Shown piece after piece: positions 2,402 through 10,117 of a stretch of 18,827 bases of DNA. Every line of letters starts with the position of its first letter. Positions within the stretch are counted from its first letter, which is position 1. Location: contig JASHOI010000457.1 of assembly GCA_030041195.1 (NCBI GenBank), positions 1 through 18,827 of the forward strand. Direction: 5' to 3'. This DNA comes from Streptosporangiaceae bacterium (GTDB lineage Bacteria; Actinomycetota; Actinomycetes; Streptosporangiales; Streptosporangiaceae). The notes beneath the pieces are model-generated. The model was not told the DNA's origin, searched no databases, and saw nothing but the letters and a program-made list of their open reading frames with translations. The position numbers were made by a program, and so were the translations under genes.

Positions 2402-2593
2402 ATGCATCCGGTTACCGCCCGGGCGATTGCCGCCGAGCAGATCAGGGACTGGCAGGCGAAGGCAGCCGCGATGCGGCTGGCGCGAGAAGCCGAACGGCCA
2501 CGGCGCCCGTGGCTTGGCGTACGCCTGGCGCGGGCCGGCCGCGCCCCGCAGCCGGCTGCCGCTCCGTGCCCGGCCCACGGCCCTGCGGTCTGA
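2402..2593 (+). CDS. Small basic hypothetical protein upstream of tricorn protease
   Basis: A 63-residue protein that I do not recognise. The ATG at 2402 follows a very strong ribosome binding site (GAGGAGGAG, 2391-2399), and this is the main argument that it is real. The frame stays open upstream to 2174, but that stretch crosses the 32-bp repeats and has no comparable start. The N-terminal 35 residues (MHPVTARAIAAEQIRDWQAK and onward) would form an amphipathic, Ala/Arg-rich helix. The C-terminal part is Pro/Ala/Arg-rich and probably disordered. There is no membrane segment, signal peptide or zinc motif; one Cys lies near the end. It ends 25 nt before the tricorn start, so the two may be co-transcribed. 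Confidence 0.6.
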   Translation: MHPVTARAIAAEQIRDWQAKAAAMRLAREAERPRRPWLGVRLARAGRAPQPAAAPCPAHGPAV

Positions 2594-2618
2594 GTGGGGC
2601 TCGGCCTACGATGAACCG

Positions 2619-5600
2619 GTGACCTCAGCCGGATACCTCCGCTTCCCCCATATTCGTGGTGATCTGGTCACCTTCGTCGCGGACGACGACGTCTGGCTCG
2701 CCCCGGCCGTCGGCGGCCGGGCCTGGCGGGTCACCGCCGATCGTGCCGCGGTGAGCCATCCCCGGATCTCCCGGGATGGCACGATGATCGCCTGGACCAG
2801 CAGGCGGGACGGGCCGCCCGAGGTCTACCTGGCCGGGATCGACGGCGGGAACGGCCGCAGGCTCAGCTACTGGGCAGACGCGAGAACCTGGGTATCCAGC
2901 TGGACGCCGGACGGCCAGGTGGTCGCGATCACCGCGGCCGGCCAGCCGTTCCGGCTGACCACGTGGGCGCGTGCGCTGCCGGCAACGGCGGAGCCGGGGA
3001 ACGGGGACGGTGACGGGGGATCAGCGGCGCGGGCGGGCGGTGCGGCGGCCGCCGGGTCCGTGCTCCCATTCGGGCCGGTCACCGACGTGGCCATCGAGCC
3101 GGCCGGGATCGCCCTGCTCGCCGGGACCTTCCGCGAGCCTGCGTACTGGAAGCGGTACCGCGGCGGGACCTCGGGACGGCTGTGGCTGCGCCCCGCCGGC
3201 CCGCCCGCCGGCGAGTTCACCCGGCTGCTTGCCGGCCTGGCCGGCCAGTTCGCCAGCCCCATGCTGGTCGCCGGGAGGCTGGCGTTCCTGTCCGACCACG
3301 AGGGCACCGGCAACCTGTACTCGTGCGCGCTCGACGGCAGCGACCTGCGCCGGCACACCGACCACGACGGCAGTTACGCGCGTAACGCGAGCACCGACGG
3401 CCAGCGGATCGTGTACCACTGCGCTGGGGACGTCTGGCTGCTCGACGGCCTGGACGCCGCCGAAGCGCCGCGGCGGCTCGAGTTCAGCCTGGCCTCGCCC
3501 GCCGCCAGGGCGCCGCGGCTGATCTCGGCAGAAGATCATCTCGGCGGCCTGTCCTGCGATCACGCCGGCCAGGCCAGCGCGATCGAGGTACGCGGGACCG
3601 TGCACTGGCTGACGCACCGGGACGGCCCGGCGCGGGCGCTTTCGGTCGTCCCCGGGGTCAGGGCGCGGCTGCCCCGGGTGCTCGGCAGGACCGGCCAGGT
3701 GGCGTGGGTGACCGACGCCGAAGGCGCGGACGCCATCGAGATCGCGCCGGCCGAAGGGCTCGCCGCGGGAGCCGCTCCGCGGCGGCTCGCCGCGGGTGCG
3801 ATCGGCTGGGTCGCCGACATGGCCGCGGCCCCGGACGGCAGTGCCGTCGCGGTCGCGGCCCGCGACGGCAGGCTGTTCACCGTCGATGTCACGTCCGGCG
3901 AGGTGACCGACGTGACGGCGTCGGGCAACGGCGAGGTCACCGGGCTGACCTGGTCGCCCGACTCGGCGTGGCTGGCGTGGTCGCATCCCGGTGCCCAGCG
4001 ACTGCGGCGGCTGCGCATGGTGAAGGTCGCCGGCCCCAGCGCGACGGTCCTGGACGTCACCGACGGGCGGTTCACCGACACCGACCCGGCGTTCACCGCG
4101 GACGGCAAGTACCTGGCGTTCCTCTCCGTGCGCAGCTTCGACCCGGTGTACGACGCGCAGGTCTTCGACCTGTCGTTCCCATACGGCAGCCGTCCGTATC
4201 TGGTGCCGCTGGCGGCGGCGACGCCGTCGCCGTTCGCGCCGCTGCCCACCGGGCGGCCGGTCGGCACCAGCGACGACGGCAAGCCAGCGCCGGACGGTTC
4301 GGCTGCCTCGGGCGATCGCGGCCCCGGCGCTGACGGCGATCGCGAGGCCGCGCCCCCGCCCGTGGTGGTGGACGCCGAGGGGCTGGCCGGCCGGGTCGTG
4401 CAGATCCCGGCTGCCGAATCGCGGTACTCGTCGCTGCGCGCGGTCAAGGGCGGGCTCGCCTGGCTCAGGCAGCCGGTGACCGGGAACCTCGGGGAGGGCG
4501 GTCCCAGGCTCGGCGACGACGCACCGCGCCCGCGGCTGGAGTACTTCGACCTCGACGCGCAGCGGTGCACCGAGCTGGCCGAGGAACTCGACTGGTTCGA
4601 GGCCAGCGGCGACGGCAGCGTGCTCGTGGTCAGCGACCACGGGAAACTCAGCGTCGTGCCCGCCGGCCGAAAGCCGGACGAGGACAACCCGGCGGACCGC
4701 GTAACCGTGGACAAGTCCCGGGCCAGGTACCTCGCCGACCCGGCCGCGCTGTGGCGCAACGCCTACGCCGAGGCCGGGCGCTACGCCCGGCATGAGTTCT
4801 GGGTACCGGACATGGCCGAGGTGGACTGGGACGCCGTGCTCGAGTCCTACCGGCCGCTGCTCGACCGGATCGCCGGGGCGCAGGACTTCGTCGATCTGAT
4901 GTGGGAGGTGTTCGGCGAGCTCGGCACCTCCCACGCGTACGTCTACGCCACCGAAGAGGGCGGCGATGACCACGAATCCGGCCAGCTCGGGTTGCTCGGT
5001 GCGGACCTTGAACGCGACGCCGACGGGCGGTGGACGGTGACCAGGGTGCTGCCGGGCGAGACCTCCGACCCGCGGGCCCGGTCCCCGCTGGCCGCCCCCG
5101 GCGTGCAGGTCCGCCCGGGGGACACGCTGCTCGCGATCGACGGGCGCGCGCTGGACGCGGCCGGGCCGGGTCCGCTGCTGATCGGCGCCGCCGACAAGCC
5201 GGTGGAACTGACCATCGGCCCGGCGCAGGGCGGCGAGGCCCGCCGGACGGTGGTCACCACGCTCAGGGACGAACGGCGGCTGCGCTATCAGGACTGGGTC
5301 GCCGGCCGGCGGCAGCTGGTCCGCGAGCTCGGCGACGGGCGCGTCGGATACCTGCACGTCCCGGACATGATGAGCGTCGGCTGGGCGGACTTCAACCGCG
5401 ACCTGCACACCGAGATGGAGCACGACGCGCTGGTCGTCGACCTGCGGAGCAATGGCGGCGGGCACATATCAGAGCTCGTGGTGGAAAAGCTCGCCCGGCG
5501 CGTGATCGGCTGGGAGGTGCCGCGCGGGCTGCTGCCGCAGACCTACCCGAGGGACGCCCCCCGCGGGCCCGTGGTCGCGCTGACCGACGAGTTCGCCGGC

Positions 5601-5981
5601 TCGGACGGTGACATCGTGACCGCGGCCATCAAGGCCCTCGGCCTCGGCCCGGTCGTTGGAACGCGCACCTGGGGCGGGGTAATCGGGTTCGACGACTTTC
5701 ATTCCCTGGCCGACGGCACCCGCATCACCGTGCCGCGCTACGCCGTCTGGATCGAAGGCTTCGGCTGGTCCCTGGAGAACCACGGCGTCGATCCCGACTT
5801 CGAGGTGGTCCCGTCGCCCGATGACCACGCCGCGGGCCGGGACCCGCAGCTGGAGGCCGGCGTGCGGATGGCGCTCAAGGCGCTCGCCTCGCACCCGGCG
5901 GTGGCCGCCCCGGCAACCACTGACCGGCCGCCCAGGCGCCGGCAGCCGCTGCCTCCCCGGGCGAGCCAAAGGGGGCGTTAA
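2619..5981 (+). CDS. Tricorn protease homologue (peptidase S41B)
   Basis: A 1120-residue tricorn-type peptidase, a large cytosolic self-compartmentalising protease that trims peptides released by upstream proteases. The order matches the family: two N-terminal beta-propellers (about residues 1-680), a C1 domain, a PDZ domain (about 788-870, starting GQLGLLGADL) and a C2 catalytic domain. Residues matching the Thermoplasma tetrad are Ser771-His772 (GTSHAY), Ser995 (GSDGD) and Glu1053 (SLENHGVDP). The Ser-to-Glu spacing of 58 equals that of the archaeal enzyme (965 to 1023), and Asp996, linked to basic P1 preference, is kept. A Gly/Asp/Pro-rich insert at about 548-585 looks like a flexible loop. 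I chose GTG 2619 because family similarity begins at VTSAGYLRFPHIRGD; the frame is open to 2163 but that stretch is repeat-derived. A TACGAT hexamer at 2607-2612 would suit a leaderless transcript starting at the GTG. Confidence 0.94.
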   Translation: MTSAGYLRFPHIRGDLVTFVADDDVWLAPAVGGRAWRVTADRAAVSHPRISRDGTMIAWTSRRDGPPEVYLAGIDGGNGRRLSYWADARTWVSSWTPDGQVVAITAAGQPFRLTTWARALPATAEPGNGDGDGGSAARAGGAAAAGSVLPFGPVTDVAIEPAGIALLAGTFREPAYWKRYRGGTSGRLWLRPAGPPAGEFTRLLAGLAGQFASPMLVAGRLAFLSDHEGTGNLYSCALDGSDLRRHTDHDGSYARNASTDGQRIVYHCAGDVWLLDGLDAAEAPRRLEFSLASPAARAPRLISAEDHLGGLSCDHAGQASAIEVRGTVHWLTHRDGPARALSVVPGVRARLPRVLGRTGQVAWVTDAEGADAIEIAPAEGLAAGAAPRRLAAGAIGWVADMAAAPDGSAVAVAARDGRLFTVDVTSGEVTDVTASGNGEVTGLTWSPDSAWLAWSHPGAQRLRRLRMVKVAGPSATVLDVTDGRFTDTDPAFTADGKYLAFLSVRSFDPVYDAQVFDLSFPYGSRPYLVPLAAATPSPFAPLPTGRPVGTSDDGKPAPDGSAASGDRGPGADGDREAAPPPVVVDAEGLAGRVVQIPAAESRYSSLRAVKGGLAWLRQPVTGNLGEGGPRLGDDAPRPRLEYFDLDAQRCTELAEELDWFEASGDGSVLVVSDHGKLSVVPAGRKPDEDNPADRVTVDKSRARYLADPAALWRNAYAEAGRYARHEFWVPDMAEVDWDAVLESYRPLLDRIAGAQDFVDLMWEVFGELGTSHAYVYATEEGGDDHESGQLGLLGADLERDADGRWTVTRVLPGETSDPRARSPLAAPGVQVRPGDTLLAIDGRALDAAGPGPLLIGAADKPVELTIGPAQGGEARRTVVTTLRDERRLRYQDWVAGRRQLVRELGDGRVGYLHVPDMMSVGWADFNRDLHTEMEHDALVVDLRSNGGGHISELVVEKLARRVIGWEVPRGLLPQTYPRDAPRGPVVALTDEFAGSDGDIVTAAIKALGLGPVVGTRTWGGVIGFDDFHSLADGTRITVPRYAVWIEGFGWSLENHGVDPDFEVVPSPDDHAAGRDPQLEAGVRMALKALASHPAVAAPATTDRPPRRRQPLPPRASQRGR

Positions 5982-6007: not shown

Positions 6008-6013
6008 TATGCT
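6008..6013 (+). promoter_or_regulatory. Probable -10 element of the trp operon promoter
   Basis: TATGCT lies 7 nt before the leader-peptide ATG at 6021. Initiation 7-8 nt after this hexamer would put the 5' end of the transcript at or next to that ATG, giving a leaderless leader peptide. No Shine-Dalgarno sequence is present at normal spacing, which fits. I see no good -35; GCGACC at 5982-5987 is only a half match with a long spacer. This is inference from position. Confidence 0.5.
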
Positions 6014-6020
6014 CACCTGC

Positions 6021-6062
6021 ATGCACGTGACCCGCGGCGAAGGCTGGTGGCGCCGCCCCTGA
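6021..6062 (+). CDS. trpL: Tryptophan operon leader peptide
   Basis: A 13-residue leader peptide, MHVTRGEGWWRRP, ending in TGA at 6060-6062. Two adjacent Trp codons (TGG TGG, 6045-6050) sit immediately before the RNA segments that fold into alternative hairpins. In trp attenuation, scarcity of charged tRNA-Trp stalls the ribosome at such codons and frees the downstream segment to form an antiterminator. The next gene is anthranilate synthase, which makes the assignment firm. Tandem Trp codons in a peptide this short, directly before an intrinsic terminator and a trp gene, are very unlikely by chance. Confidence 0.9.
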   Translation: MHVTRGEGWWRRP

Positions 6063-6108
6063 GGCGGTTGCTGGCTCGCGCACGCTGCAGATCCTGACAA
6101 CGACCGCC
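6053..6108 (+). promoter_or_regulatory. trp attenuator: pause hairpin (1:2) and antiterminator (2:3)
   Basis: Segment 1 (CCGCC, 6053-6057) can pair with segment 2 (GGCGG, 6063-6067) across a 5-nt loop that holds the leader stop codon. Segment 2, extended to GGCGGTTG (6063-6070), can instead pair with segment 3 (CGACCGCC, 6101-6108) over 8 bp including one G-U. Segment 3 is also the left arm of the terminator, so 2:3 and 3:4 exclude each other. A ribosome stalled at the Trp codons (6045-6050) would cover segment 1 and free segment 2. Pairings were found by hand. Confidence 0.85.
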
Positions 6109-6131
6109 CGTCGCCGGCGGTCGTTTCTCTT
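6099..6131 (+). terminator. Intrinsic terminator of the trp attenuator (3:4 hairpin)
   Basis: ACGACCGCC (6100-6108) pairs perfectly with GGCGGTCGT (6116-6124) around a 7-nt loop, with one more A-T pair possible outside (6099/6125). A T-rich run, TTTCTCTT (6124-6131), follows directly. It lies between trpL and trpEG, 44 nt before the trpEG start, where an attenuator terminator belongs. It would end transcription when Trp-tRNA is plentiful. Confidence 0.9.
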
Positions 6132-6174
6132 GCCCGCACCGTCCGGCACCGGCGCTGATAACCGAGGGGCCGAC

Positions 6175-8367
6175 GTGGACCTGACGCAGTTCGAGACCAG
6201 CGGCGGAGTACGGGTGAGCCGCGCCGCAACACCGTTTGAACCCGCCCTGCTCGAGGAGATCACCCGGCAGGTCGAGGCCCGCCGGGGCGGCGTGCTCAGC
6301 TCCGGAATGGAGTACCCGGGACGGTACAGCCGGTGGCACATGGCCTACGTGGACCCGTGCGTCGAGCTGGTCGCGCGCGGCCGGCGGCTCACCGCGACCG
6401 CGCTGAACGACCGCGGCCGGTGCCTGTTGCCGGTGATAGGTGACGCGATGCGCCGGGCCGGTGATGAGGTCGAGCCTGGCGCGCCAGCCCAGGTCGAGGT
6501 GGCCGTCCCGGAGCCCGAGGGCACGTTCACCGAGGAGGAGCGGAGCCGGCGGCCGACGGTGTTCTCTGCGCTGCGCCAGATCATCGCCGCGTTCTCCGGG
6601 CCGGACCCGCACCTGGGCCTTTACGGCGCGTTCGGGTACGACCTGGCGTTCCAGTTCGAGCCGGTGCGGCTCCGGCACGCCAGGCCGGCCGGCCAGCGCG
6701 ACCTCGTGCTGCACCTGCCCGACCGGCTGTACGTGCTGGACCGCAAGCGGGAGACCGCGACCTGCTACAGCTACGAGTTCGAGGTGGCCGGGGCGTCGAC
6801 CGAGGGCCTGCGCCGATCCGTTGACCAGCCGGTGGCAGACGAGATGGGGGAGGGGCGGCCCGTTAAGGCCACTGAACTTCCCGAGGAACCTAGGCCAGGC
6901 TCGTTCGCGCGGGTCGTGGAGCAGGCTCGGGAACGGTTCGCGCGCGGGGACCTGTTCGAGGTCGTGCCCAGTCACGTCTTCCACGGGACCTGCGGCTCGC
7001 CGGCCGCCTTTTACGAGCGGCTGCGGCGGCGCAACCCGGCGCCGTATGAGTTCTTCCTCAACCTGGGCCAGGGCGAGTATCTGGTCGGTGCGTCCCCGGA
7101 GATGTACGTGCGGGTGACCGGTGACCGGGTGGAGACCTGCCCGATCTCCGGGACCATCGCACGCGGCGGCGACGCGCTGGCCGATGCCGAGAACATCCGC
7201 GCGCTGCTGACGTCGGCCAAGGAGGAGTCCGAGCTGACCATGTGCACCGACGTGGACCGCAACGACAAGTCCCGGGTGTGCGAGCCGGGCAGCGTCAAGG
7301 TGATCGGCCGGCGCCAGATCGAGATCTACAGCAGGCTGATCCACACCGTGGACCACGTGGAGGGGCGGCTGCGGCCCGGTTTCGACGCGCTGGACGCGTT
7401 CCTGACCCACATGTGGGCGGTGACCGTGACCGGCGCGCCCAAGACCTGGGCCATGCAGTTCATCGAGGACCACGAGGACCGCCCGCGGCGCTGGTACGGC
7501 GGCGCGGTCGGGATGATCGGCTTCGACGGTGGCATGAACACCGGGCTCACGCTGCGCACCGCGCACATCAGCGGCGGGGTTGCCGCGGTCCGGGCCGGGG
7601 CGACGCTGCTGTTCGATTCGGACCCGGCGTCGGAAGAACGGGAGACCCACCTGAAGGCCAGGGCGCTGCTGGAGACGCTGTGCGAGACGCAGGCCCCCGC
7701 CGAGGAGCCGGAACGGGTCGCCGAGGTGCCCGGGGCAGGCATGAAGGTACTCCTGGTCGACCACCAGGACTCGTTCGTGCACACGCTGGCGGGCTACTTC
7801 CGCGAGGCTGGCGCGGAGGTGACCACGCTGCGGGCCGGGTTCGACCCGGCGCTGCTCGACCGCTACCGGCCCGGCCTCGTGGTGCTCTCGCCGGGCCCCG
7901 GCAGGCCCTCGGACTTCGGCTGCGACGCGCTGCTGACCGCGCTTGACGACCGGGGCATCGCCGCGTTCGGCGTGTGCCTCGGGCTGCAGGCGATGGTGGA
8001 GCACGCGGGCGGGCAGCTCGGCCTGCTGGCCGAACCGGTGCACGGCAAGCCGGGGACCGTGCGGGTGCTCGGCGGGCCGGCCGCCTCCGGCCTGCTGGCC
8101 GGCCTTCCGGCCGAGTTCACCGCCGGGCGGTATCACTCGCTGCACGCCGTTCCGGCCGGGGTCGGGAGCGGGTTCTCGGTCACCGCGGTCACCCCCGACG
8201 GGGTGGTGATGGCGATCGAGGACGAGGCGGCCGGGCGGTGGGGGGTGCAGTTCCACCCGGAGTCGATCCTCACCGCGTCCGGCCGGGCCGGCCATCGGGT
8301 GATCGGGAACGTGCTGCGGCTGGCCCGGGCGCGGTCGCGGGACGAGGCCCTCAGCACCATGCACTAG
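6175..8367 (+). CDS. trpEG: Anthranilate synthase, fused TrpE-TrpG (component I and glutamine amidotransferase)
   Basis: A 730-residue bifunctional anthranilate synthase converting chorismate and glutamine to anthranilate, the first committed step to tryptophan. The TrpE half (about 1-515) carries the chorismate-binding core: PYEFFLNLG, CPISGTIARG (322-331), VDRNDKSRV (about 360) and TVTGAPKTW (about 418). The TrpG half starts at Met523 (MKVLLVDHQDSFVHTL) and has the full amidotransferase triad: Cys601 (GVCLG), His694 and Glu696 (FHPES). The N-terminal block LSSGMEYPGRYSRW is typical of the fused clade also found in Streptomyces and Rhizobium. GTG 6175 is chosen because GAGGGG (6164-6169) lies 5 nt upstream; a TTG at 6130 falls inside the terminator. 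Expression is probably controlled by the attenuator. The stop codon overlaps that of the convergent permease. Some fused copies serve secondary metabolism, but the trp attenuator argues for tryptophan supply. Confidence 0.96.
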   Translation: MDLTQFETSGGVRVSRAATPFEPALLEEITRQVEARRGGVLSSGMEYPGRYSRWHMAYVDPCVELVARGRRLTATALNDRGRCLLPVIGDAMRRAGDEVEPGAPAQVEVAVPEPEGTFTEEERSRRPTVFSALRQIIAAFSGPDPHLGLYGAFGYDLAFQFEPVRLRHARPAGQRDLVLHLPDRLYVLDRKRETATCYSYEFEVAGASTEGLRRSVDQPVADEMGEGRPVKATELPEEPRPGSFARVVEQARERFARGDLFEVVPSHVFHGTCGSPAAFYERLRRRNPAPYEFFLNLGQGEYLVGASPEMYVRVTGDRVETCPISGTIARGGDALADAENIRALLTSAKEESELTMCTDVDRNDKSRVCEPGSVKVIGRRQIEIYSRLIHTVDHVEGRLRPGFDALDAFLTHMWAVTVTGAPKTWAMQFIEDHEDRPRRWYGGAVGMIGFDGGMNTGLTLRTAHISGGVAAVRAGATLLFDSDPASEERETHLKARALLETLCETQAPAEEPERVAEVPGAGMKVLLVDHQDSFVHTLAGYFREAGAEVTTLRAGFDPALLDRYRPGLVVLSPGPGRPSDFGCDALLTALDDRGIAAFGVCLGLQAMVEHAGGQLGLLAEPVHGKPGTVRVLGGPAASGLLAGLPAEFTAGRYHSLHAVPAGVGSGFSVTAVTPDGVVMAIEDEAAGRWGVQFHPESILTASGRAGHRVIGNVLRLARARSRDEALSTMH

Positions 8368-9971
8368 CTCGGCTGCGTGCCGACCTGAACGATCTCGCCG
8401 TCCTCGGTCAGCGCAACCTCGCTCTGCATCTCGCCGCGGAAGAACCCGGGCCTGAGCTTGCGCTCGGTCAGCATCCAGACCAGCCCGGCCAGCGCGGTCA
8501 CGATGCCGATCGACAGCACGCCGCCGATCCGCCAGTGCGGGGCGAACGGCATCAGCCAGGTGGTGTCGCTGTTGGTTGAGTTGCAGTAGTAGTAGATGCT
8601 CCAGCCGAGCAGGGCGAACAGCATGATCCCCGACAGCAGCGGCATCAGCCCTCGCAGGAAGAAGTCCTTGGCGCTGCGCAGCAGCACCCGGCGGTAGAAC
8701 CAGGTGCAGGCGAAGCCGGTGATGCCGAGGTACACCGCGACGAAGAAGGTGCAGCCGGTCACCGCGTCCCCGATGATGTCCCCGCCCGAGACGAAGTTGA
8801 GCACCACATACATCACGATGGAGACCGCCGAGAACGAGATCGTGGAGAAGGTCGGGGTCAGGTAGCGCGGGTGGATCCGGCCGAAGATCGCGGGCAGCGC
8901 CTTGTGGAACGCCATCGACACCGTGGTCCGGGCGTTCGGCAGGATCGTGGTCTGTGTGGTGCCGACCGCGGAGCTGAGCACCATCAGCAGCAGCAGCCGG
9001 GTGAAGATGGTGCCGATGACCGAGCTGCCGAACACCGCCGTGCCGAGCACCGACAGCACGTCGCCCTCGTGGTTCGGGTTGGTGAGCCCGATGCCTTTGC
9101 TGCCGACGCCGGCGAAGGCCTGCACCGACGTGGTGGTCAGCGCGTAAATGACCAGCAGCAGCACGGTGGCGACGACGCCCGCGTTGCCGGGGACGCGACG
9201 CGAGTCCTTGGTCTCCTCGTTCACCGACACCGTGGTGTCCCAGCCCCAGTAGACGAACACCATCAGCAGCATGCCGGCCACGAACGCGCTGACGCTGTGC
9301 AGCTGGAACGGGTTGAACCAGCTCCACGAGACCGCCAGGTGGCCGGCGGGCGCTGAGCCGGTGCCGAGCCTGACCAGCGCGGTCACCGACAGCACCGCCA
9401 GCATCAGCACCTCGATGACGACCAGGGCCACCTGAGTCCTGGCCGACACCTGGATGCCGCGGTAGCACATGTAGGTAAGCACCACGAGGAAGGCGATGCC
9501 GACCAGCAGCACCCACGGGCTGGTCGCGTTGCCGCCGATGGCGTCGAGCCCCAGGAACAGGAACACGTACTGGCCGGCGATCTGCGCGTAGCTCGCCATG
9601 CCGAGCAGGTCGGCGGCGATCGTGCCCCAGCCGCCGGCGAACCAGCCGGTCTTCGGCCCGAGTGCGCGGGCAGCCCAGATGAAGCTGCTGCCGCAGTCGG
9701 GGTCGGCGTAGTTCATCTCCTTGTTGGCCCAGGAGGAGAAGAACATCGGGATGAACGCGAGCAGCACGATCAGCGGCGTCTGCACGCCGACCACGAGCAC
9801 GACGAAGCCGAGCGTCGCGGCCAGGCTGTAGGCCGGCGCGGTTGACGCGATGCCCATCGCCGTGCTCTGCAGGTAGCCGAGCGCCCCGTCCTTCAGGCCG
9901 CGCGCCGAAGCGCCCGGAGCGGCGGTCTGCTCGACGTCGGCTCGCAGCGCCTCCGATGCCTCGGATCCCAT
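8364..9971 (-). CDS. APC superfamily amino acid permease
   Basis: A 535-residue integral membrane transporter of the amino acid-polyamine-organocation superfamily. The N-terminal block (GLKDGALGYLQSTAMGIAST) followed by AYSLAATLGFVV is the TM1 signature region, and about twelve hydrophobic segments follow. Both ends are hydrophilic, with the C-terminal tail after RPGFFRGE. ATG 9971 is chosen because AGGAGGA (9976-9982 on the minus strand) lies just upstream; the frame extends to 10013 without a better site. The gene lies 146 nt downstream of the PucR-type regulator on the same strand, so the regulator may control it. A short inverted repeat ACCA-AA-TGGT (10056-10065) in that gap could be an operator, though it is weak evidence. 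The substrate is unknown; adjacency to trpEG is not evidence for tryptophan because the genes converge. Its TAG stop shares CTAG (8364-8367) with trpEG. Confidence 0.92.
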   Translation of the reverse strand: MGSEASEALRADVEQTAAPGASARGLKDGALGYLQSTAMGIASTAPAYSLAATLGFVVLVVGVQTPLIVLLAFIPMFFSSWANKEMNYADPDCGSSFIWAARALGPKTGWFAGGWGTIAADLLGMASYAQIAGQYVFLFLGLDAIGGNATSPWVLLVGIAFLVVLTYMCYRGIQVSARTQVALVVIEVLMLAVLSVTALVRLGTGSAPAGHLAVSWSWFNPFQLHSVSAFVAGMLLMVFVYWGWDTTVSVNEETKDSRRVPGNAGVVATVLLLVIYALTTTSVQAFAGVGSKGIGLTNPNHEGDVLSVLGTAVFGSSVIGTIFTRLLLLMVLSSAVGTTQTTILPNARTTVSMAFHKALPAIFGRIHPRYLTPTFSTISFSAVSIVMYVVLNFVSGGDIIGDAVTGCTFFVAVYLGITGFACTWFYRRVLLRSAKDFFLRGLMPLLSGIMLFALLGWSIYYYCNSTNSDTTWLMPFAPHWRIGGVLSIGIVTALAGLVWMLTERKLRPGFFRGEMQSEVALTEDGEIVQVGTQPS

Positions 9972-10117
9972 GATCGTCCTCCTGAGGTTCAGGACCAGCC
10001 CAGGTCTGCTCAACTATCGGGCGGCCGGGCATGGATGGGAAAGAGACATGTTGTAACCAAATGGTGCTTTCGTCATACAGTCTGTCGGCCCGCGCGCGGG
10101 GCCGGGACGGATCTGCC

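Follow-up and report, generated by a model that had tools for sequence, protein, structure and literature searches.

The trp attenuator of Escherichia coli works through four RNA segments that form mutually exclusive stems; its leader is led by a Shine-Dalgarno site, TrpR adds repression, and to our knowledge no fifth segment has been described for it. Here, we analyzed a stretch of 18,827 nucleotides from a Streptosporangiaceae bacterium (contig JASHOI010000457.1; the window in the following), in which a trp leader lies upstream of trpEG, the gene for a fused anthranilate synthase. The leader shares the four-segment, exclusive-stem logic of E. coli, whereas the Shine-Dalgarno-led initiation and the TrpR repression of E. 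coli are both unlike the leader family described here.

Further counterparts are known. Lin et al. reportedly described a trp attenuator of Streptomyces venezuelae in 1998, and Canestrari et al. are said to have found leaderless poly-Cys attenuator open reading frames (ORFs) in mycobacteria in 2020, which resemble the present leader in that a leaderless short ORF serves as amino-acid sensor in an actinobacterium, although the amino acid differs. Trp attenuators have been reported for Corynebacterium and Streptomyces, whereas no conserved terminator hairpins were found at the mycobacterial cys leaders; Thermobifida fusca was among the genomes of that study, whose accessible part names no trp attenuator for this species (PMC1262725). 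In Streptomyces lividans, 17% of the primary transcripts are leaderless, and the tandem-Trp leader peptide TrpL1 upstream of trpE has been reported to be leaderless as well (PMC8079986). The attenuator RNA of the alphaproteobacterium Sinorhizobium meliloti also starts with the trpL ATG, regulates trpE(G), and yields upon termination a small RNA, rnTrpL, that additionally acts in trans (PMC7298713); here, the likeness drawn is one of layout. Because leaderless trpL genes are thus known in S. lividans and S. meliloti, the leaderless trpL is not unusual in kind.

The preliminary description of the window had proposed a trp attenuator with a probable leaderless trpL, and comparison with related trpEG loci supports this proposal. 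In our best explanation, to which we assign a probability of roughly 0.87, the element is a leaderless, ribosome-mediated trp transcription attenuator that controls a stand-alone trpEG. It is an ordinary kind of attenuator in an unusual form and a member of a conserved family, in which comparison revealed two additional covarying helices that lie outside the classical scheme.

A conserved leader upstream of trpEG

The fused trpEG assigned in the preliminary description is confirmed by two curated NCBIfam models, the cut-offs of which are well exceeded: PRK13566.1 (1077 bits, cut-off 645) and TIGR01815.1 (fused anthranilate synthase TrpE-clade3; 969.1 bits, cut-off 739.15, residues 6-717). A protein search for TrpEG relatives scored 8000 candidates, and the nearest among the matches listed were about 90% identical. 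The scan of genome contigs yielded 367 trpEG relatives, the best 80 loci of which were kept for the upstream comparison; in a scan of 297 genomes of one family, the best TrpEG identity was 77%, and the upstream comparison therefore excludes the approximately 90% identical proteins.

A leader layout as in the window precedes trpEG in 75 of these best 80 loci. Seventy-four of the leaders were detected by script, and one (L001), in which the ORF extends beyond segment 2, was included manually. Together with the window, these relatives form the working set of 76 loci, aligned as A3, to which all counts refer unless stated otherwise. According to their record titles, the relatives are mainly Streptosporangiales (Actinomadura, Actinoallomurus, Nonomuraea, Thermobifida, and others). 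The core of the leader RNA is highly conserved in sequence. A further set of 29 loci, 20 found with a model of the leader family that also spans the segment 5 columns and nine found by protein, contained three duplicates; the layout was present in all 26 non-duplicate loci, with the start selected there by its spacing to the -10 hexamer. Among 246 genomes of the class, the family model matched 28 under strict filters; 22 of these had already been met in the family sample, and the other six matches were weak (E values from 4e-5 to 8e-4). The site in the window, a training row of the model, scored 60.2 bits.

Five of the 80 loci lack the layout. L005 is an edge case, as its contig starts just upstream of trpEG. 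In L008, a -10-like TACGCT box about 130 nt upstream of trpEG directly precedes terminator-like remains, and the leader is missing, which reflects either a genuine loss or a misassembly. In L027, L029, and L064, trpEG follows a gene that by eye resembles short-chain reductases, and no attenuator occurs in the 330 nt read; these trpEG copies may belong to specialised-metabolite clusters.

All 76 leader peptides contain the motif WWR[RC], with a run of two Trp residues in 39 and of three in 37 cases, and the Arg codons following the run (Trp-Trp-(Trp)-Arg-Arg or Arg-Cys) constitute segment 1. The last Trp codon lies 8-12 nt before segment 2 in every locus, and in 73 loci, the stop codon starts 2-5 nt ahead of segment 2. 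In L001, L015, and L030, the leader frame crosses segment 2 rather than ending in the 1:2 loop. As a ribosome covers about 12 nt past its codon (PMC4833913), a ribosome stalled at the Trp codons would leave segment 2 free, whereas a ribosome at the stop codon would cover it.

With respect to the start of translation, 72 of the 76 loci have an in-frame ATG that precedes the Trp run by four codons or more, and the remaining four use GTG. The start codon had initially been selected in part by its spacing to the -10 hexamer, and the test was then redone without that criterion: a TAnnnT motif was found 5-10 nt upstream of the nearest in-frame ATG in all 72 loci that have one, at a background frequency of 22 in 26,520 positions. 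None of the 76 chosen leader starts is preceded by a Shine-Dalgarno-like motif (GGAG, GAGG, or AGGA). The -10 hexamer is thus placed such that the start codon would come first in the transcript, and the leaderless property, for which there are the precedents mentioned above, is well supported at the sequence level.

It is unlikely that attenuation proceeds as described but with a short 5' leader, so that the transcript would not be strictly leaderless. Three loci with 9-10 nt between the -10 hexamer and the start codon would indeed leave a few untranslated bases; however, the spacing is 6-8 nt in the other 73 loci, including 7 nt in the window, in line with a mean distance of 6.3 nt in S. lividans (PMC8079986), and the uniform lack of a Shine-Dalgarno-like motif also speaks against such a leader.

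Streptomyces leaders were also compared. Nineteen loci came from the 19 of 41 Streptomyces genomes that matched a leader pattern, with TAnnnT 6-7 nt before the ATG. The Streptomyces attenuators differ in having a peptide of the MFA...NWWWTA... type, a core of the form gGCC-rGCy-GGCC (PMC1262725), and in most of the 19 loci a CCGTTCCTC-like stretch 3' of the terminator. In these loci (L114-L132), this stretch can pair with the loop and segment 4 or, judging by eye, with the ribosome site (GGAAC type) of the gene that follows.

The classical stems

The positions of the -10 hexamer, the ORF, the hairpins, and trpEG given in the preliminary description were all reproduced when the sequence was read again (Table 1). 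The window thus contains a short tandem-Trp leader ORF in front of a trp gene. Its 1:2, 2:3, and 3:4 stems exclude one another, and 3:4, together with a T-rich tail, has the form of an intrinsic terminator; such tails are interrupted in many relatives. The terminator scan detected one terminator-like site, where shuffled sequences lead one to expect 0.1.

In alignment A3, 96.1% of the 3:4 cells are paired, and 18 two-sided changes occur, a number reached by none of 500 shuffles; 14 of the 18 are exchanges of A-U to G-C at a single pair. For 2:3, 91.0% of the cells are paired, and all of the 14 two-sided changes concern the last pair. The covarying stems that the preliminary description had proposed to seek in relatives are therefore found for 3:4 and, at one pair only, for 2:3, but not for 1:2. 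As far as the alignment indicates, the core stems vary little across the relatives.

In RNA ending at the T-tract, the modelled probability of 3:4 is 0.94 in the window and 0.92 on average, and it is still 0.86 with a stalled ribosome. The fold of the window RNA, with a z score of -0.42, is no better than that of shuffled sequences, 65 of 200 of which folded equally well or better.

This last result is one of several that weigh against our best explanation. The pair-type count of 3:4 does not stand out, as 493 of 500 shuffles attain it, and a 3:4 control slid by +3 covaries as highly (0.187 vs 0.179), although only 70.5% of its cells are paired. The sixth and last pair of 2:3 is broken in 41 of the 76 loci, and the changes in 1:2 are one-sided throughout. 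The model with a stalled ribosome favors 3:4, with P(2:3) above 0.5 in only six of the 76 loci (RNA to the T-tract) and at 0.00 in the window. As equilibrium folding prefers 3:4 even in the stalled state, antitermination must therefore be kinetic. Finally, the promoter scan of the window found neither a two-hexamer promoter of the sigma-70 type nor a -35 match.

Two further helices

The first additional helix, 0:0', joins the 5' terminus of the transcript to the spacer that separates segment 2 from segment 3. The first transcript bases (typically AUGCGAACCG) are complementary to this spacer (typically CGGUUCGUGCAU), and the duplexes formed within a locus are on average more stable than those with swapped partners (-12.4 vs -10.5 kcal/mol, 8 permutation standard deviations). 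In 53 of the 76 loci, the shuffle z score is below -2. When partners were swapped with the nearest relative (n=38), the own partner was better in 20, worse in 5, and equal in 13 cases (p 0.002). In the model, the start codon of an RNA that stops behind segment 2 is unpaired with a probability of 0.73; for the complete terminated leader, this value is 0.45, with a decrease in 57 of the 76 loci, and in the window it drops from 0.999 to 0.51. With a shuffled spacer, the start codon is unpaired at 0.59 versus the native 0.45 (native lower in 53 of 76 loci, p 6e-5), and the effect is larger for the first eight bases (0.27 native versus 0.47 with shuffled spacer; 63 of 76 loci, p 6e-10). The start codon takes part in 0:0' less frequently than the bases that follow it. 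In the further loci, the z score of 0:0' is below -2 in 16 of 26, and in the Streptomyces sample in 9 of 19. A comparable limit on leader synthesis reportedly exists in E. coli, where, according to Das et al. in 1983, a distal segment blocks leader initiation.

The second helix, 4:5, involves a stretch beyond the T-tract. In most loci, this stretch is complementary to the terminator apex, which comprises the loop, segment 4, and a portion of segment 3; typical partners are GCCCTCACCGGCGG with CCGCCTGGTGAGGGC. In A3, 92.7% of the 4:5 cells are paired compared with 41-57% if the helix is slid by 1-3 columns, a difference to which the choice of the register from one row contributes a bias. There are 62 cells with two-sided changes, and none of 500 shuffles reach this number. 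The mean duplex energy is -26.2 kcal/mol with the own and -21.5 kcal/mol with swapped partners (13.6 permutation standard deviations, inflated by relatedness). A test that lessens the effect of relatedness, the swap with the closest free relative of a different apex, gave a better result for the own partner in 25, a worse one in 6, and an equal one in 7 cases (n=38, sign test p 0.0009). The shuffle z score has a mean of -3.1 and is below -2 in 61 of the 76 loci. If segment 5 is added, the modelled P(3:4) falls to 0.46, compared with 0.92 without it, and the median P(4:5) under stalling is 0.79.

For both helices, there are also data that argue to the contrary. At least two start-codon bases are paired in the best 0:0' duplex in only 45 of the 76 loci, and the helix is weak in the window (z -1.1). 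The pair-type count of 4:5 is matched by 82 of 500 shuffles, and the own segment 5 ranks first among the possible partners in no more than 6 of the 76 loci (median rank 11 of 76). Segment 5 of the window is poor, with a shuffle z score of -1.3 and a modelled P(4:5) of 0.00-0.03. In the further loci, the 4:5 z score is below -2 in only 11 of 26, and it is about zero or positive in L139, L140, L143, L144, L145, and L149. In the 19 Streptomyces loci, 4:5 is unsupported, as the complement present there has a mean z score of only -0.77 and the own partner has no advantage over swapped ones (0.69 of the permutations equal or better).

A role of segment 5 in the termination decision was rejected by reasoning, as this segment is transcribed only after the T-tract. 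Being made too late for termination there, 4:5 must therefore act on read-through RNA, in which it might hold segment 4, stabilise the message, or expose a processing site. We regard it as improbable that segment 5 serves translational control by binding the trpEG Shine-Dalgarno site when 3:4 is formed and releasing it when 4:5 is formed. By eye and without counting, many rows show complementarity between the GGGCC-type end of segment 5 and the GGGGCC-type site, and in the 19 Streptomyces loci the modelled accessibility at the trpE site increased from 0.17 to 0.24 (6 up, 1 down, p 0.006). In the 76 family loci, however, the modelled accessibility does not change (0.35 vs 0.36, 13 up, 9 down, p 0.91), and masking of the trpEG site by segment 5 is thus not supported.

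Our literature search found neither a segment past the terminator nor a start-codon helix for this group, which is weak evidence of novelty, as subscription papers were mostly outside the search. A methods paper (PMC2891591) reports several unnamed extra conserved helices in an actinobacterial trp-attenuator alignment of 117 columns and 8 sequences, and these possibly overlap 0:0' or 4:5.

Taking both helices together, we tentatively suggest that the Streptosporangiales attenuator may be a seven-segment relay rather than a switch of four segments. In this relay, the 5' end with its start codon would act through 0:0' as a switch element of its own and limit leader translation to early ribosomes, and 4:5 would invade the terminator via its loop and keep read-through RNA locked in the open fold, such that one decision per transcript is made and fixed. 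The window would then have kept 0:0' and largely lost 4:5.

Locus anatomy, mechanism, and implications

Table 1. Features of the trp leader and trpEG in the window.
Feature	Position	Strand	Remarks
-10 hexamer TATGCT	6008-6013	+	7 nt before the leader ATG at 6021; implied transcript start at or adjoining the ATG
trpL leader ORF	6021-6062	+	13 codons, MHVTRGEGWWRRP*; adjacent Trp codons at 6045-6050
Segment 0	6022-6029	+	RNA 5' end, includes two start-codon bases; partner is 0'
Segment 1	6053-6057	+	within the Arg-Arg-Pro codons 3' of Trp-Trp
Stop codon TGA	6060-6062	+	inside the 1:2 loop
Segment 2	6063-6070	+	immediately 3' of the stop codon
Segment 0'	6081-6089	+	complement of segment 0; eight pairs, one bulged base
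Segment 3	6099-6108	+	pairs with segment 4 or segment 2
Segment 4	6116-6125	+	3:4 is the terminator stem; loop 6109-6115
T-rich terminator tail	6124-6131	+	from sequence reading and terminator scan
Segment 5 position	6139-6155	+	in relatives, complement of terminator loop and segment 4; window copy degenerate
Shine-Dalgarno-like GAGGGG of trpEG	6164-6169	+	read from the sequence
trpEG	6175-8367	+	fused anthranilate synthase components I and II; 730 aa, GTG start
1:2 stem	6053-6057/6063-6067		5 bp
2:3 stem	6063-6070/6101-6108		8 bp, one G-U
3:4 stem	6100-6108/6116-6124		extendable to 6099/6125 (10 bp)

The gene trpEG appears to stand alone, as the ORF that overlaps its end by four bases is convergent on the minus strand (8364-10013) and resembles an amino-acid transporter gene. 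Upstream, a large protein with matches to a TolB-like propeller and a C-terminal-processing (S41) peptidase is encoded at 2553-5981, and 26 nt separate the end of this ORF from the -10 box of the trp leader.

In the mechanism that we propose, transcription would start at or adjoining the first base of the leader ATG, and a ribosome would load on the 5' AUG without the help of a Shine-Dalgarno sequence. If Trp-tRNA is plentiful, the ribosome would read through Trp-Trp-Arg-Arg-Pro to the stop codon and mask segment 2, such that 3:4 forms and transcription terminates. With scarce Trp-tRNA, it would stall on the Trp codons and mask segment 1 but not segment 2, and the resulting 2:3 stem would permit read-through into trpEG. 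If no ribosome loads, 0:0' and 1:2 would hold segment 2, and 3:4 would terminate transcription; as ribosome-free RNA would thus end in termination, the default state would be off. Once the spacer has been made, 0:0' would render the 5' end less accessible, and the leader would be translated mainly by early ribosomes. In relatives that keep it, 4:5 may hold segment 4 of the read-through RNA, such that the terminator cannot re-form.

Regulation by an untranslated leader RNA, be it a T-box, a riboswitch, or a protein-binding attenuator, is very improbable. The high conservation of the core would fit such an RNA, but the Trp run, the reading frame, and the position of the stop codon are kept in 73 of the 76 loci, and none of the 4227 families of an Rfam covariance-model scan of the window matched at 6008-6175 up to an E value of 5, for which reason known riboswitch or T-box regulation was rejected. 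A chance combination of fortuitous hairpins and a fortuitous Trp-Trp ORF in a GC-rich intergenic region, although compatible with the folding z score of the window, can be practically dismissed, as conservation of the layout across both sets of loci refutes it and the layout is absent from the three trpEG copies in another context.

A leaderless attenuator poses a timing problem, as the ribosome must load on the bare 5' AUG before the polymerase reaches the terminator about 110 nt further on. The conserved helix that lowers the accessibility of the 5' end after synthesis of the spacer is a testable answer to this problem, and the covarying segment past the termination point raises the question of whether the attenuator also acts after read-through. 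Relatives of the element occur in cultivable actinobacteria.

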